DNA from: Bacteroidales bacterium
GTDB lineage: Bacteria; Bacteroidota; Bacteroidia; Bacteroidales; UBA932
DNA length: 44,145 nt
Direction of reading: 5' to 3'
Assembly: GCA_028686425.1 (NCBI GenBank)
Contig: JAQUBZ010000019.1
Coordinates: forward strand, 1-44,145
Part shown: positions 15,053 through 19,447 of the stretch, one piece after another
How the letters are laid out: every line of letters starts with the position of its first letter
Position numbering within the stretch: position 1 is the stretch's first letter
Made by a program: the position numbers and the translations under genes
Notes under the pieces: model-generated
What the model was told of the DNA's origin: nothing
What the model saw: only the letters and a program-made list of their open reading frames with translations
Database searches by the model: none

Positions 15053-15601
15053 TCATTTACGGCATTTTGCCATTTTTGCGGATAGTGTCGCAAGCATCAG
15101 ATGAAGGTCATCATATAGCGGAACACCATATTTTGCACACGTAATTCTCACATTATCATAACGATAGAAATCTTTTTCGCAGCATACCATAATCTTTCCG
15201 CTCTTCATGTGAAGTCCCATTTCGAGCAGTGTGACTGGTGAAGCGCTGCTTCCCAAAATATACATTATTATGTAGTCCGCCTCTTCAAGATGATCCAGCT
15301 CCCAATTCACCTGATAATCCATTTCTCCTTCACGTGTTGCATCCCAATGGTCCTGTCGCGGATTGAACAGAATATATCTGCCGTTGAGCGATTCAAAATA
15401 CTCTTCTACTTCTGTCTGCCAATCGCGACTGTTGCCCATATCTATGGTTCCTGCCAGAAAAATCTTTGTAAATGATTTATCCTCATCTATTTCGACCGGC
15501 AACTCTTCATGAGGATGAAGCACTGCCGTCAGCGGTTCGCGATTGTCTGAACATGCGGCCAGCACTGCTCCCATGACTATGTACAATACTATTTTTTTCA
15601 T
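15053..15601 (-). CDS. Lipoprotein with nucleoside 2-deoxyribosyltransferase-like domain
   Basis: The 182-residue product begins with a lipoprotein signal (MKKIVLYIVMGAVLAAC, lipid Cys17). The rest resembles the nucleoside 2-deoxyribosyltransferase-like group (PF15891 type): IFLAGTIDMGNSRDWQ, FNPRQDHWDATREGE, WELDHLEEADYIIMY, SPVTLLEMGLHMKSG and VCCEKDFYRYDNV. Glu in LLEMG is at the place of the catalytic Glu of that fold. Such enzymes are normally cytoplasmic, so a lipid anchor is odd. The ATG at 15601 was chosen because an upstream frame start is a TTG and would bury the signal peptide. A minus-strand TACCTTTG at 15606-15613 ends only four bases before the ATG, so the mRNA may have almost no leader. 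Enzymatic activity is inference. Confidence 0.7.
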   Translation of the reverse strand: MKKIVLYIVMGAVLAACSDNREPLTAVLHPHEELPVEIDEDKSFTKIFLAGTIDMGNSRDWQTEVEEYFESLNGRYILFNPRQDHWDATREGEMDYQVNWELDHLEEADYIIMYILGSSASPVTLLEMGLHMKSGKIMVCCEKDFYRYDNVRITCAKYGVPLYDDLHLMLATLSAKMAKCRK

Positions 15602-15652
15602 TCTACAAAGGTAATGAAAAAACAAAAATTAGCATTTTTGATTTTTCTTGAT

Positions 15653-15660
15653 TACATTTG
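15653..15660 (+). promoter_or_regulatory. -7 element (TACATTTG) for the dsrC operon
   Basis: TACATTTG fits TAnnTTTG and lies 35 bases before the dsrC ATG at 15696. A TTTG occurs 12 bases upstream (15637-15640), which is closer than the usual 19-21, so the -33 box is unclear. It faces away from the lipoprotein gene at 15601. Confidence 0.45.
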
Positions 15661-15695
15661 AAGATATTTATACACTTAATTTATTTATCGCATTT

Positions 15696-15998
15696 ATGGA
15701 TATCAAAGATTTTGAAGTTGATGGCGACGGTTTCTTGACCAAGCCTGAATTATGGAATGAAGAAGTGGCAAAGATGTTTGCCAAATCTGACGGAATTGAA
15801 GAGATGACTCCGAAACATTGGGCTGTCGTCAATATCATCAGAAAGAATTTTGAAGAAAAGGGCAACGCTCCCATGGTAAGGACCATCTGCCAGGAAACAG
15901 GATTGAAACTGAGAGAAATATACGAATTGTTCCCTCTGGGACCTGCTCGCGGCGCTTGTCGCGTGGCCGGCCTTCCAAAGCCTGACGGATGCGTATAA
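15696..15998 (+). CDS. dsrC: DsrC-type sulfur carrier protein with both C-terminal cysteines
   Basis: Small cytoplasmic protein of the DsrC/TusE/DsvC family, 100 residues, normal length. Family features are TPKHWAVVNIIRKNFEE in the helical core and RGACRVAGLPKPDGCV at the C-terminus. The flexible arm has Cys88 and Cys99, 11 residues apart with Cys99 penultimate. This two-cysteine arm is the hallmark of true DsrC, which forms a trisulfide between them during sulfite reduction and is the substrate of DsrMK. TusE-type proteins for tRNA thiolation keep only the last Cys. The ATG at 15696 is preferred to an upstream TTG. First gene of an operon with DsrM-, DsrK- and cysteine-desulfurase-like genes. 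No DsrAB or TusBCD genes lie in the window, so its sulfur donor is open. Confidence 0.9.
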   Translation: MDIKDFEVDGDGFLTKPELWNEEVAKMFAKSDGIEEMTPKHWAVVNIIRKNFEEKGNAPMVRTICQETGLKLREIYELFPLGPARGACRVAGLPKPDGCV

Positions 15999-16124
15999 CA
16001 GATGTAACAATGTGACTGTCTGTGCGATACACGATGTCAAATCCATAGGCCATAACCTTGATTAACGATTGCGGCCACATCTGCCTGACAGACTGAACCA
16101 CTTTAAGAATAACACTACCAAACT

Positions 16125-16802
16125 ATGATTATATCTGCCTGGATTTCTATCGCAGCGCTCATCTGGTGCATTGCATTCTTGGTCTCGTATCTGATAGGCC
16201 TTATCAGAAAAGGGGCTCCGAAGGATTTATCCGAACGATCCGGTAATACTGTAAAGGGTATTATCTATTCAAATACAGGTGCCATGCTGCCTGCCGCCAA
16301 AGAGTCGGCATACATGCACCTTCCCACCTATACCGCAGGGATGATATTCCATATCGGAAACTTCCTCTCCTTGTTGATGTTTGTATGGATAATTGTCTGC
16401 TGTTGTTGTAACATCTCGACACCTGCCGTTTTAGCATTGATTTTAGCCGCATTACTGACTGTCAGTTCATTATGCGGCATTTTTATTTTAATAAAGAGAT
16501 TTGTCAACGTCAATCTGCGCTCGATATCGTGTTTTGACGACTTCTTCTCAAATATTATATGCACTCTGTTCCAGATTGCCGGTATATGTATAATGCTTTC
16601 TTTTTCAAATATATGCACATATACTGATGCTTGTTCCGCCGACCGCTTATGTCTGATGAACTTCTATTTCATTGTGGCAGCCATTCTTTTCATCTGGATG
16701 CCGCTTGGCAAGATTAAGCATCTGATTTATTATTTTGCAGCACGTTATCACTTGGGATTTTTCTACGGATGGCGCAACACATGGCCTCCCAAACATATTT
16801 AA
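16125..16802 (+). CDS. DsrM/NarI-like membrane cytochrome b subunit
   Basis: A 225-residue integral membrane protein with about five hydrophobic segments (near residues 4-27, 70-95, 100-124, 142-162 and 178-200). Two pairs of His suit two b hemes as in the NarI/DsrM group: His65 and His76 at the second helix (HLPTYTAGMIFHIGNF) and His199 and His209 at the fifth (WMPLGKIKHLIYYF). The tail FFYGWRNTWPPKHI is on the presumed cytoplasmic side, as in DsrM. Such subunits pass electrons between menaquinol and a soluble FeS partner. That partner is encoded 12 bases downstream. Overall similarity to DsrM is weak by eye and rests on topology, His placement and neighbours. A run of four Cys (residues 92-95) in or next to a membrane helix is unusual. 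Confidence 0.65.
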   Translation: MIISAWISIAALIWCIAFLVSYLIGLIRKGAPKDLSERSGNTVKGIIYSNTGAMLPAAKESAYMHLPTYTAGMIFHIGNFLSLLMFVWIIVCCCCNISTPAVLALILAALLTVSSLCGIFILIKRFVNVNLRSISCFDDFFSNIICTLFQIAGICIMLSFSNICTYTDACSADRLCLMNFYFIVAAILFIWMPLGKIKHLIYYFAARYHLGFFYGWRNTWPPKHI

Positions 16803-16814
16803 GCACATTGTCTT

Positions 16815-18203
16815 ATGGATACAATAACTAAAGAACAACGAAAAGCGGCTCTCGATTTGATGAAAGCCAATCTTGCATCTGACAGCAAGTTTCAGACACA
16901 CCTTAACGCCTGTGTCCGTTGCGGGCTATGTGCTACTTCGTGTATGTACTATATCGCATTCAAGGATCCGAAATATATACCGGGGCGTAAAGTTAACCTC
17001 GTAAGTTCTATTTACAGAAGGTATTTTACCCCTGAAGGAAAATATTTTCCGTCTCTGTTCAATGCCCGCAATCTCGATGCCGAGATGGCAGAAGAGATGG
17101 TTGACTGCCTGTTCGGCGGATGTACCATGTGCGGAAGATGTGTCAAACACTGCTCCATAGGTGTCGATGTCTCCTATATTGTCAAAAAGGGGCGTGAAAT
17201 GCTTGCAGTGATGGGGCTTGTCCCCAAGACACTTCAGGCAACTGTGGATGCCGCAATCAATACAGGCAACAACATGGCCATCCCTACCGAAGAGTTTGTC
17301 GATACCATCAAATGGATGGAAGAGGAGCTTCAGGACGAGATGGGAGACCCAAAAGCCAATATTCCTCTTGATGAGACAAATAGACACATAATATATACTC
17401 TCAATCCGCGTGAACCGAAGTTTTTCCCGCTCTCCATTTCTGCCATGGCCAAAGTATTTTACGCCGCAGGCGAGAGCTGGACACTCTCTTCCAAATATTA
17501 TGACGTGACAAATTACGGATTTTTCAACGGAAATAATGAGGAAGCTGCCAAGATTGCAGGTTACCTGTATGACGAGACTCACCGCCTGAAAGCCGATAAA
17601 CTTGTGCTCGGAGAGTGCGGACACGGTTCAAGAGCTTCGCGATGGGAAGGTCCCAACCTCCTGAAAAAGGCATACGATTTCGAGATGACTACCGCCCTTG
17701 AACTCATGGCTGAGTACATCCGCACCGGACGTATTAAGGTAGATAAGACTAAAAATCAGACTCTCTGCACATTGCACGACCCTTGCAACCTCGTCCGCAA
17801 CGGAGGTCTCCTCGAGGAGATGAGATTTGTGGTCAAGTCGTGTGTCGCCAATTTTGTCGAAATGACCCCTCACGGAAACGACAACTTCTGCTGCGGAGGT
17901 GGAGGAGGACAGCTTGCCATGAGTGAATATAATGAACGCCGTCTGAAAATCGGAGGCATAAAGGCCGATCAGATTAAGGCCACAGGTGCCAAAATCGTGA
18001 TTACTCCATGTCACAATTGCGTTGACCAGCTGATGCAGATCAATCACACATACAAATTGGGGGTGACCATCAAGACTGTCGCCGAAATAGTGGCAGACGC
18101 CCTTGTCCTCCCCGACCCGGCATCACCACATGACAACCCCGCGGATACCGCCGCCGAAACAGTTGCCGACCCTCTCCACACTGATTCCAATTCATCAAAA
18201 TAA
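16815..18203 (+). CDS. DsrK/HdrD-like FeS protein with CCG domain
   Basis: Cytoplasmic-side iron-sulfur subunit, 462 residues. The N-terminal ferredoxin part has two four-Cys sets: CVRCGLCATSC (Cys33, 36, 39, 43) and CTMCGRCVKHC (Cys103, 106, 109, 113). The C-terminal half has a degenerate first half-motif LGECGHGSRASRW and a complete CCG motif (LHDPCNLVRNGG, then NFCCGGGGGQLAM, then ITPCHNCVDQL) of the kind that binds the special [4Fe-4S] cluster which cleaves disulfides in HdrB/HdrD and, for DsrK, acts on the DsrC trisulfide. It is adjacent to dsrC and a cytochrome b gene, matching a DsrMK-type module. The last 30 residues are a Pro/Ala/Asp-rich low-complexity tail. HdrD, GlpC or TmcB-like roles are alternatives, but the DsrC neighbour favours DsrK. 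Confidence 0.85.
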   Translation: MDTITKEQRKAALDLMKANLASDSKFQTHLNACVRCGLCATSCMYYIAFKDPKYIPGRKVNLVSSIYRRYFTPEGKYFPSLFNARNLDAEMAEEMVDCLFGGCTMCGRCVKHCSIGVDVSYIVKKGREMLAVMGLVPKTLQATVDAAINTGNNMAIPTEEFVDTIKWMEEELQDEMGDPKANIPLDETNRHIIYTLNPREPKFFPLSISAMAKVFYAAGESWTLSSKYYDVTNYGFFNGNNEEAAKIAGYLYDETHRLKADKLVLGECGHGSRASRWEGPNLLKKAYDFEMTTALELMAEYIRTGRIKVDKTKNQTLCTLHDPCNLVRNGGLLEEMRFVVKSCVANFVEMTPHGNDNFCCGGGGGQLAMSEYNERRLKIGGIKADQIKATGAKIVITPCHNCVDQLMQINHTYKLGVTIKTVAEIVADALVLPDPASPHDNPADTAAETVADPLHTDSNSSK

Positions 18204-18222
18204 TAATCCTAAAACTATCAAT

Positions 18223-19386
18223 ATGAGCAAATTAATTTATTTGGACAATTCAGCCACCAGCTTTCCCAAACCCGAATCGGTTTATGACTTCATGAACACA
18301 TTTTATCGCAAACATGGAGTAAATCCGGGACGTTCCGGTTTTGATGCTGCCATTGAAACTGAAGAAGTTGTCAACAATACCCGTAAACTCCTGACCAAGC
18401 TGTTTAACGGCGGAGAAGACTATAACCGTCTGACATTCAGTTATAATGCCACAGACTCTCTCAATCTGATTATCAACGGACTTGTAGAGCCGGGTGCTCA
18501 CGTGATTACCACCATGCTTGAGCATAATTCGGTCTTAAGGCCTCTATATCAGCATAAAGAAGCCGGTACAATAGATGTCACCTACCTTTCTTTCGACAAA
18601 AACGGTTATGTCGATCCGGAAGATGTGCGCAAGGCAATCCGTCCGAACACCAAGTTTGTGGTCATGACCCATTGTTCCAACGTCATCGGGACCGTCCAGC
18701 CGCTTGCTGCCGTAGGTAAAATCTGCAAGGAGAACAATATCATCTTTGTAGTTGACGGAAGTCAGGGAGCAGGTTGCAACACTATGGATATGCAGGCTTT
18801 CAATGTGGATGTTTACTGCTTTACGGGGCACAAATGTCTTATGGGCCCTACCGGCATCGGCGGTTCTTATGTCAGAGAAGGCATCACCATCAATAAGACA
18901 CGCGCAGGCGGAACAGGTGTAAGATCCGCTTATCCCGCTCATCTCGAAGAATATCCGTATCGACTCGAATATGGTACTCTCAACCTTCTCGGTGTCGCAG
19001 GTCTTAATGCCGGCGTAAAATGGCTTAACGAACAGGGAATGGAGAATATCCACGCCCGCGAGATAGCTCTATGGGACAAACTCCGTCTTGCTCTTCAAAA
19101 CATCAAAGGTGTAACCACATATTGTGCCAACTCCACCGACAACCATAATCCGGTATTGAGCTTCAATATCAACGGATTTGAGGCAGGAGACGTTGGGATC
19201 ATGCTTGATGTAGATTACAATATTGCAGTGCGTACAGGTCTGCAGTGCGCCCCTAAAGTTCACGAAGTCATCGGTACATTTGACATGCACGGCACTGTCC
19301 GCATGAGTATCGGCGCTTTCACCACCGAAGAGGATGTTGACACCGCCATCAAGGCGGTTACCGAAATAGCTGCCATCAAAAACTGA
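18223..19386 (+). CDS. Cysteine desulfurase family protein (class V aminotransferase)
   Basis: PLP enzyme of 387 residues that in this family removes sulfur from L-cysteine as an enzyme-bound persulfide, leaving alanine. The start is ATG 18223 (MSKLIYLDNSATSFPKP), not the frame opening at 18103, which runs inside the preceding gene. Visible: LDNSATS near the N-terminus, HNSVLRP, VVDGSQGAG, the PLP lysine in TGHKCLMGPTG (Lys204), and RTGLQCAP with the candidate persulfide Cys342. These fit the EF2568-type cysteine desulfurase group better than IscS. It is 19 bases downstream of the DsrK-like gene and followed by a strong terminator, so it closes the operon and could load sulfur onto DsrC. That coupling is inference. 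Confidence 0.85.
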   Translation: MSKLIYLDNSATSFPKPESVYDFMNTFYRKHGVNPGRSGFDAAIETEEVVNNTRKLLTKLFNGGEDYNRLTFSYNATDSLNLIINGLVEPGAHVITTMLEHNSVLRPLYQHKEAGTIDVTYLSFDKNGYVDPEDVRKAIRPNTKFVVMTHCSNVIGTVQPLAAVGKICKENNIIFVVDGSQGAGCNTMDMQAFNVDVYCFTGHKCLMGPTGIGGSYVREGITINKTRAGGTGVRSAYPAHLEEYPYRLEYGTLNLLGVAGLNAGVKWLNEQGMENIHAREIALWDKLRLALQNIKGVTTYCANSTDNHNPVLSFNINGFEAGDVGIMLDVDYNIAVRTGLQCAPKVHEVIGTFDMHGTVRMSIGAFTTEEDVDTAIKAVTEIAAIKN

Positions 19387-19409
19387 AATAGACTATTTTA
19401 AACTATTTA

Positions 19410-19447
19410 TGTTCCGTTTGAGAATCATCTCGGGCGGAACATTTTTT
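19410..19447 (+). terminator. Rho-independent terminator of the dsrC operon
   Basis: Stem TGTTCCGTTTGAGA (19410-19423) pairs with TCTCGGGCGGAACA (19428-19441), allowing three T-G wobbles, with loop ATCA, followed by six T. It lies 24 bases after the desulfurase stop and separates that operon from pckA. Confidence 0.9.

Follow-up and report, generated by a model that had tools for sequence, protein, structure and literature searches.

The closest described relatives of the locus reported here are DsrC with the DsrMK or DsrMKJOP complex of sulfate and sulfite reducers, the HmcEF and TmcBC proteins, the IscS-TusA-TusBCD-TusE relay, mycobacterial EtfD and methanogen HdrDE, and the EF2568/SclA family of desulfurases. 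The locus is a four-gene cassette encoding a DsrC, a membrane protein (M), an iron-sulfur protein (K) and a cysteine desulfurase (CD). It lies in positions 1–44,145 of contig JAQUBZ010000019.1 from a Bacteroidales bacterium (assembly GCA_028686425.1); this whole stretch of 44,145 nucleotides is referred to as the window. The plus-strand grouping of the four genes, first noticed by a reader of the sequence alone (the original prediction), is confirmed here with small corrections. We propose that the cassette is an electron-sink module that converts cysteine sulfur to sulfide without a sulfite reductase, a reading to which we assign a probability of about 0.5. Published work is cited by PMC accession, in each case for excerpts of the paper.

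The resemblance to the Dsr system covers both the carrier and its reductase. The DsrC has a two-cysteine arm that ends in GCV with an 11-residue spacing, and M and K combine a probable NarI-like membrane subunit with a CCG iron-sulfur subunit, for which electron transfer from menaquinol to a DsrC disulfide is likely. Unlike DsrMK and DsrMKJOP, the cassette has no siroheme reductase that we could find and no J, O or P genes in the unit. It includes a desulfurase, its DsrC carries an extra invariant cysteine (Cys65), K and M miss the cut-offs for DsrK and for HmcE and TmcC, and M has only about 205–228 residues. K scores highest with HmcF and TmcB, and M weakly with HmcE and TmcC; unlike those proteins, the cassette subunits fall below cut-off and are linked to DsrC and a desulfurase. 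The Tus relay also places a cysteine desulfurase beside a DsrC-family carrier, but the cassette has both arm cysteines and a membrane redox pair, and in the window's genome PF02635 is matched only by one domain of a long fusion protein (TusB was not searched). Judging from the models, an HdrD-like fold, a five-helix heme b membrane part and quinone coupling are probably shared with EtfD and HdrDE (PMC13083937, in excerpt). EtfD is a single chain with two CCG domains that serves ETF, whereas the cassette has two chains, one full CCG set and DsrC as a neighbor. Finally, a syntrophic propionate oxidizer grown without sulfate or sulfite expresses dsrC, asrAB and a cysteine desulfurase, and a link between DsrC and cysteine sulfur has been suggested for it (PMC10579422). 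That paper reports dsrC together with asrAB and, in the excerpted text, does not place the desulfurase next to it. The genes described here make up a cassette of four, and no siroheme reductase was found.

Distribution and co-occurrence of the cassette genes

A scan of GTDB with exact peptides of the window's K returned 23 loci, all labeled Bacteroidales, Bacteroidetes, Bacteroidia or Rikenellaceae; a query of this kind may miss distant relatives and other phyla. Two further surveys covered a class sample of 395 Bacteroidia genomes and a family sample of 249 genomes. The surveys are not independent, as 15 of the 17 complete GTDB loci are the same records as family-sample genomes. The order DsrC-M-K-CD is present in 17 of the 23 GTDB loci (in L070, CD is cut by the contig end), which upholds the conserved linkage that the original prediction had set as a check. 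DsrC-M-K occurs without an adjacent CD in three loci (L066, L068 and L072), and K stands alone in another three (L079–L081), two of them labeled as rumen. When cassette loci of the sampled genomes were cut out more widely, all four genes were found in 8 of 8, with one CD at a contig end and one locus (L091) being the same record as L060. The flanking genes, named by eye, are RecQ and PEPCK around the window, L060/L091, L089 and L090, and histidine-biosynthesis and sugar-nucleotide genes at other cassette loci. As the same grouping recurs in 17 of 23 loci with differing flanks, it is not due to chance.

DsrC was detected in 28 of the 249 family genomes. The protein is of the two-cysteine type with an adjacent M in 27 of these, while one genome (G586) has only a one-cysteine form. 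Three of the 395 class-sample genomes contain K at E≤1e-60, and these are the same three that have a two-cysteine DsrC.

Among the genomes of the six loci without a full cassette, CD is found elsewhere in five. In G645 and G646 (L068 and L072), DsrC-M-K share a contig and CD (E = 5.5e-229) lies on a different one. In G647–G649 (L079–L081), CD is on a separate contig with E-values of about 1e-210 to 1e-212, and G647 and G649 have the DsrC-M pair, K and CD on three contigs. These three loci represent a broken-up but mostly kept cassette, and thus a natural test of functional linkage. Of 20 listed genus-mates that lack DsrC, seven were tested and none had a CD at E≤1e-40; five order-mates gave only matches of 165–206 bits in the CD search. 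Over 23 pairs, 5 of them unlinked, the distance matrices of K and CD show a correlation of r = 0.91, a figure to which shared ancestry contributes; none of 5000 permutations reached this value. The desulfurase therefore tracks K even where the two genes are unlinked.

DsrC contains three conserved cysteines

The dsrC gene (15696–15998, plus strand, ATG start) encodes a protein of 100 residues that belongs to the DsrC family, with scores of 116.9 bits against PF04358 (cut-off 24.9) and 98 against TIGR03342 (cut-off 53.5). The best matches in a phmmer comparison with DsrC chains in the PDB are 2xsj and 2v4j, which we take to be the Desulfomicrobium and Desulfovibrio structures. Both arm cysteines claimed from the sequence are present, as Cys88 (CysB) and Cys99 (CysA).

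The arm was examined in 78 distinct fetched relatives, 35 encoded beside M or K and 43 unlinked; a match in G237, which is below cut-off, contains a stop and gives no usable DsrC, was left out. Dividing the proteins by linkage or at 60% identity gave the same groups of 35 and 43. Both arm cysteines occur in all 35 linked proteins and in none of the 43 unlinked ones, which keep the outer cysteine and have Ser (26), Thr (16) or Ala (1) at the inner position. This agrees with the earlier statement that TusE-type proteins retain only one arm cysteine. Sequence identity is at least 64% among the linked DsrCs and below 42% for the remaining relatives. The cassette DsrC is thus not an ordinary TusE, being separated from the one-cysteine type and having both arm cysteines. 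A third cysteine, Cys65, is located in a conserved region ahead of the arm and follows the same division (35 of 35 linked, 0 of 43 unlinked); the equivalent residues in three aligned PDB DsrC chains are Ser, Ser and Thr. Cys65 may take part in sulfur transfer. One-cysteine TusE-type DsrCs were also seen in 35 of the 395 Bacteroidia genomes, the copy in G051 having an in-frame TAG.

According to excerpts of PMC3397948, CysB is found only together with DsrAB and is otherwise nearly always replaced by Ala, Ser or Thr, the exceptions named being Methylococcaceae, Marinobacter and Lawsonia. The two-cysteine DsrC described here does not occur with DsrAB, judging from the siroheme reductase domain search described below, in which 29 of 30 distinct genomes had no match. 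The cassette adds another exception to this rule, and a systematic one.

DsrC and TusE form one family, with E. coli TusE acting downstream of IscS (PMC3397948, in excerpt), and CD belongs to a family that mobilizes sulfur. CD and DsrC could accordingly form a biosynthetic relay that feeds tRNA thiolation or the making of iron-sulfur clusters or other cofactors, as TusE does, in which case M and K would only repair oxidized DsrC. The cassette DsrC keeps the CysB that TusE lacks, a separate one-cysteine protein exists (both types occur together in eight family genomes and in G172), and the genome has a separate SufS. The cassette is also patchy, with 27 of 249 family genomes having it, unlike a housekeeping pathway. 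We consider such a relay unlikely.

A putative two-chain membrane reductase

M (16125–16802, plus strand) is a NarI/HmcE/DsrM-like membrane protein of 225 residues. Its AlphaFold model (mean predicted local distance difference test [pLDDT] 81.8, predicted template modeling score [pTM] 0.77) contains five long helices of membrane type, with a sixth at the C terminus. The five-helix protein with two histidine pairs seen in the original prediction is thereby recovered with one extra helix, the pairs being His65/His76 and His199/His209. His65, His76 and His199 are invariant in 21 of 21 homologues. M has no Pfam match at E≤0.001, and a profile search of PDB sequences gave no match. In a Foldseek search with the model, each of the first eight matches is a NarI subunit of nitrate reductase, at weak E-values (0.055–0.23).

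K (16815–18203, plus strand; 462 residues) is an HdrD/DsrK/HmcF/TmcB-like iron-sulfur protein with matches to PF02754 and PF13183. The cysteines of two 4Fe-4S sites (33/36/39/43 and 103/106/109/113), Cys268 of the GECGHG motif and one full set of CCG cysteines (Cys324, Cys359/Cys360 and Cys399/Cys402), a domain that would bind a non-cubane cluster, are invariant in 23 of 23 homologues, in accord with the GECGHG and full CCG motif read earlier. The AlphaFold model (mean pLDDT 83.5, pTM 0.83) matches mycobacterial EtfD best (E = 1.1e-11, template modeling score 0.67 by query), followed by a LutA-LutB model and chain B of Hdr complexes; a sequence search for DsrK-type structures matching K returned only 9ojn. 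EtfD is described as an iron-sulfur and heme b wire to menaquinone that is related to HdrDE (PMC13083937, in excerpt). Because of the fold matches of K and M and this wiring, M and K look like a two-chain quinone-linked reductase of the HdrDE/DsrMK type, which would presumably bind heme and quinone.

The likeness to EtfD, which is the best solved match of K and feeds electrons into menaquinone, can also be read in the opposite direction, and Dsr proteins run reversed in sulfur oxidizers (PMC10504309, in excerpt). K and M would then oxidize a DsrC sulfide or persulfide, passing electrons into menaquinone, with CD handling sulfane sulfur or supplying cysteine sulfur. No siroheme reductase was found that could carry the sulfur onward. 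Sulfide uptake is a task to which a desulfurase is ill suited, and two of the relatives are labeled as rumen, where a strong oxidant would not be expected. An oxidative function is, in our view, quite improbable.

K was matched in only 3 of 72,556 plasmid records. The best match is a Methylovirgula iron-sulfur protein with 30% identity, located beside hydrogenase genes; no DsrC is present among the 13 features listed near it. An apparent TGA inside K of G141 was rejected: it coincides with the terminal stop of the open reading frame, where the match ends, and is read as a normal end.

The cysteine desulfurase

CD (18223–19386, plus strand; 387 residues) is a cysteine desulfurase dependent on pyridoxal 5'-phosphate (PLP), scoring 417.5 bits against TIGR01977 (cut-off 377). 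Lys204, presumably the PLP lysine, and Cys342, which we take to be the catalytic cysteine, are invariant in 18 of 18 cassette desulfurases. Cys342 lies in the RTGLQCAP motif, by which the enzyme had been recognized at the outset. The residue that directly follows the PLP lysine, Cys205 (TGHKCLMGP), is likewise invariant in all 18. A separate SufS is encoded in the same genome (519.5 bits, cut-off 475.1). CD is therefore not the only desulfurase, and a role as the sole housekeeping enzyme can be ruled out.

The desulfurase also bears on whether the cassette is a redox sensor or a thiol-repair system, in which DsrC would read the state of the quinone pool through M and K and alter gene expression or enzyme activity. 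DsrC has a helix-turn-helix-like region and has been suggested to act in regulation; redox sensing was also raised in the original prediction. On these terms there is little reason for the unit to include a desulfurase, and no target was seen, though none was searched for. We judge a sensor to be very unlikely.

EF2568, like CD a member of TIGR01977, has been proposed as a selenocysteine lyase (PMC2276186, in excerpt), which raises the question of whether CD is such a lyase and the unit handles selenium. A selD gene scoring over its cut-off was found in 9 of the 17 cassette genomes tested, which favors selenium and counts against our proposal; the other 8 have none over cut-off. CD, in contrast to EF2568, has DsrC as its neighbor, and selD has no match in the four cassette genomes of the window's genus (4 of 4, its own included), which rules out selenium use as a general role. 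Furthermore, CD scores 312.5 for SclA, for which the cut-off is 525. A selenium route is disfavored and seems to us highly improbable.

Sulfite reductase and other sulfur proteins in the genomes

A sulfite reductase was sought with PF01077 (NIR_SIR), the siroheme sulfite/nitrite reductase domain, which we take to be a domain of DsrA, DsrB, AsrC and CysI. The search covered 31 entries and 30 distinct genomes, as G404 and G643 are the same, and these included G586 with its one-cysteine DsrC. No match was found in 29 of the 30, while controls were matched in 11 of 14. The window's own genome is among the 29, so that the check for dsrAB elsewhere in it came out negative and a hidden sulfite reductase was not found. 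As this genome is 92% complete, its single absence of DsrAB is weak evidence; the absence, however, repeats across genomes. By this domain, no DsrAB was found to complete the DsrABCMK set regarded as minimal for dissimilatory sulfite reduction.

The window's genome encodes a fusion protein in which rhodanese, TusA and DsrE2 domains are joined to a disulfide reductase (L169, G000:C45:1-2424); it runs up to the end of its contig. This fusion is a second possible persulfide handler, and evidence exists for sulfur transfer from DsrEFH to DsrC (PMC3397948, in excerpt). DsrC might thus be loaded by the fusion or some other donor, with CD serving a parallel purpose. We regard this as rather unlikely: CD, and not the fusion, is the conserved neighbor, and PF02635 (DsrE) has no match in 6 of 19 distinct genomes, all six of which keep the cassette (PF13686, a better fit to the fusion, was not searched).

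Proposed function

The proposal of a cysteine-to-sulfide electron sink draws on the genes and their motifs, the conserved grouping, the co-occurrence, the two-cysteine arm and the fact that no siroheme reductase was found. Also in its favor are the fold matches of K and M and, in the window's genome, a separate SufS, a MenA over its cut-off and the lack of any selD match. CD would take sulfur from L-cysteine as a persulfide on Cys342, leaving alanine. The sulfur would then move to Cys99 in the tail of DsrC, perhaps with the involvement of Cys65. Attack by Cys88 on the Cys99 persulfide would release sulfide and leave a Cys88-Cys99 disulfide, which K, held at the membrane by M, could reduce at the non-cubane cluster bound by its CCG domain. 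Electrons would travel from menaquinol to heme b in M and through the two 4Fe-4S clusters of K, the net reaction being cysteine and menaquinol to alanine, sulfide and menaquinone. The vinosum DsrC carries sulfane sulfur only when the penultimate cysteine is present, and work with a DsrK-DsrC interaction is cited in the same source (PMC3397948, in excerpt). Tmc is regarded as a DsrC reductase whose CCG subunit interacts with DsrC (PMC10553843, in excerpt). The cysteine-sulfur interpretation of the original prediction is partly supported.

A number of observations weigh against this proposal, several of which concern M and K. K scores 304.5 for HmcF (cut-off 750), 297.7 for TmcB (735) and 257.2 for DsrK (400), which rules out a true HmcF, TmcB or DsrK. 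M scores 34.7 bits for HmcE (cut-off 275) and 19.6 for TmcC (240). The layout of K, with two 4Fe-4S sites and one CCG domain, is as in the DsrMK-like pair described earlier; the label DsrMK is too precise. The NarI matches of M are weak, as noted above, and its fourth histidine, His209, is a histidine in 18 of 21 homologues and Asn or Gln in 3, which makes two hemes uncertain. The model of K is poor in the CCG loop (pLDDT 52–55, residues 351–370).

Other points concern the genomes. G648 shows no DsrC and G644 (L066) no CD. The rhodanese-TusA-DsrE2 fusion is a possible alternative to CD as the source of DsrC sulfur. The single PF01077 match among the 30 genomes, an Asr-like siroheme protein in G623, is below its cut-off and lies on a 3.3-kb contig of an assembly with 7% contamination. 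In the window's genome, 92% complete, MenD has no match; menaquinone may therefore require a scavenged precursor, genes from the 8% that the assembly lacks, or another route (one covered only in part by the searches). G404 and G519 have a TIGR01475 prenyltransferase; MqnP of the futalosine route is of this kind. Finally, we infer every transfer and redox step, the clusters, the hemes and the direction of the reaction.

By formation energies, the couple of cysteine with alanine and sulfide lies near −0.1 V, close to menaquinone, so that at low sulfide the reaction would be feasible, but on a slim energy margin. For DsrMK itself, a menaquinol:DsrC reaction has been doubted on thermodynamic grounds (PMC3949148, in excerpt). 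Given this doubt and the narrow energy margin, the direction is the weakest step of the proposed mechanism.

A stronger version would be a complete cysteine respiration, in which cysteine is the terminal electron acceptor, the three-cysteine DsrC is the carrier and M-K is a stripped-down DsrMK-type complex, possibly with energy conservation. We put this forward tentatively and find it rather doubtful. If correct, cysteine respiration would be a branch of the Dsr system free of sulfite reductase and would explain, at the molecular level, how anaerobic Bacteroidales make sulfide from cysteine.

Full-text literature searches, whose reach excluded most subscription papers, found no description of this cassette. 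DsrMK in the absence of DsrAB is already known: excerpts of PMC10504309 report DsrMK in assemblies with no identified DsrAB, in 7 of 74 in a basal bacterial group as well as in basal Chloroflexi. What sets the cassette apart is the combination of an Hdr/Dsr-type membrane reductase and DsrC with a dedicated desulfurase and no siroheme reductase found. A DsrC with two cysteines is usually interpreted as a sign of sulfite or sulfate chemistry; in the present data it persists alongside a DsrK-type partner in no fewer than 28 distinct genomes that gave no match to a siroheme reductase domain. Matches to DsrC or DsrMK-like proteins in metagenomes consequently do not prove sulfite reduction. Should the mechanism be correct, it would define a route from cysteine to sulfide through a quinone-linked membrane complex, of relevance to sulfide in rumen, gut and digesters, and the Bacteroidales with the cassette, rumen ones included, may use cysteine sulfur as an electron sink. 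Cysteine as a possible electron acceptor has been raised for Acetomicrobium (PMC10579422 and PMC11201294, in excerpt), and the mechanism would then be a candidate to seek in such presumed cysteine-accepting organisms.

Organization of the locus

The unit is closed by a terminator-like hairpin at 19409–19442 (plus strand), with 15 pairs followed by a T-rich tail. It has the longest stem among the 6 terminator-like sites of the region, where shuffled sequences average 3.4, and corresponds to the strong terminator reported earlier. Upstream of dsrC, a weak candidate −7 promoter element, TACATTTG, was read by eye at 15653–15660 (plus strand); it is called on the basis of TAnnTTTG, which we take to be the Bacteroidota −7 consensus. 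No −33 element was seen at the usual spacing from it, and the promoter call is weak. The gap between dsrC and M (15999–16124) is 126 bases long in the window and at most 45 in 20 GTDB loci with both genes, as measured from longest-open-reading-frame starts. An Rfam search of the window, this gap included, gave no RNA family at gathering scores. A minus-strand gene at 15053–15625, divergent from dsrC, encodes a nucleoside 2-deoxyribosyltransferase-like domain (PF15891) with a start that, by eye, resembles that of a lipoprotein.

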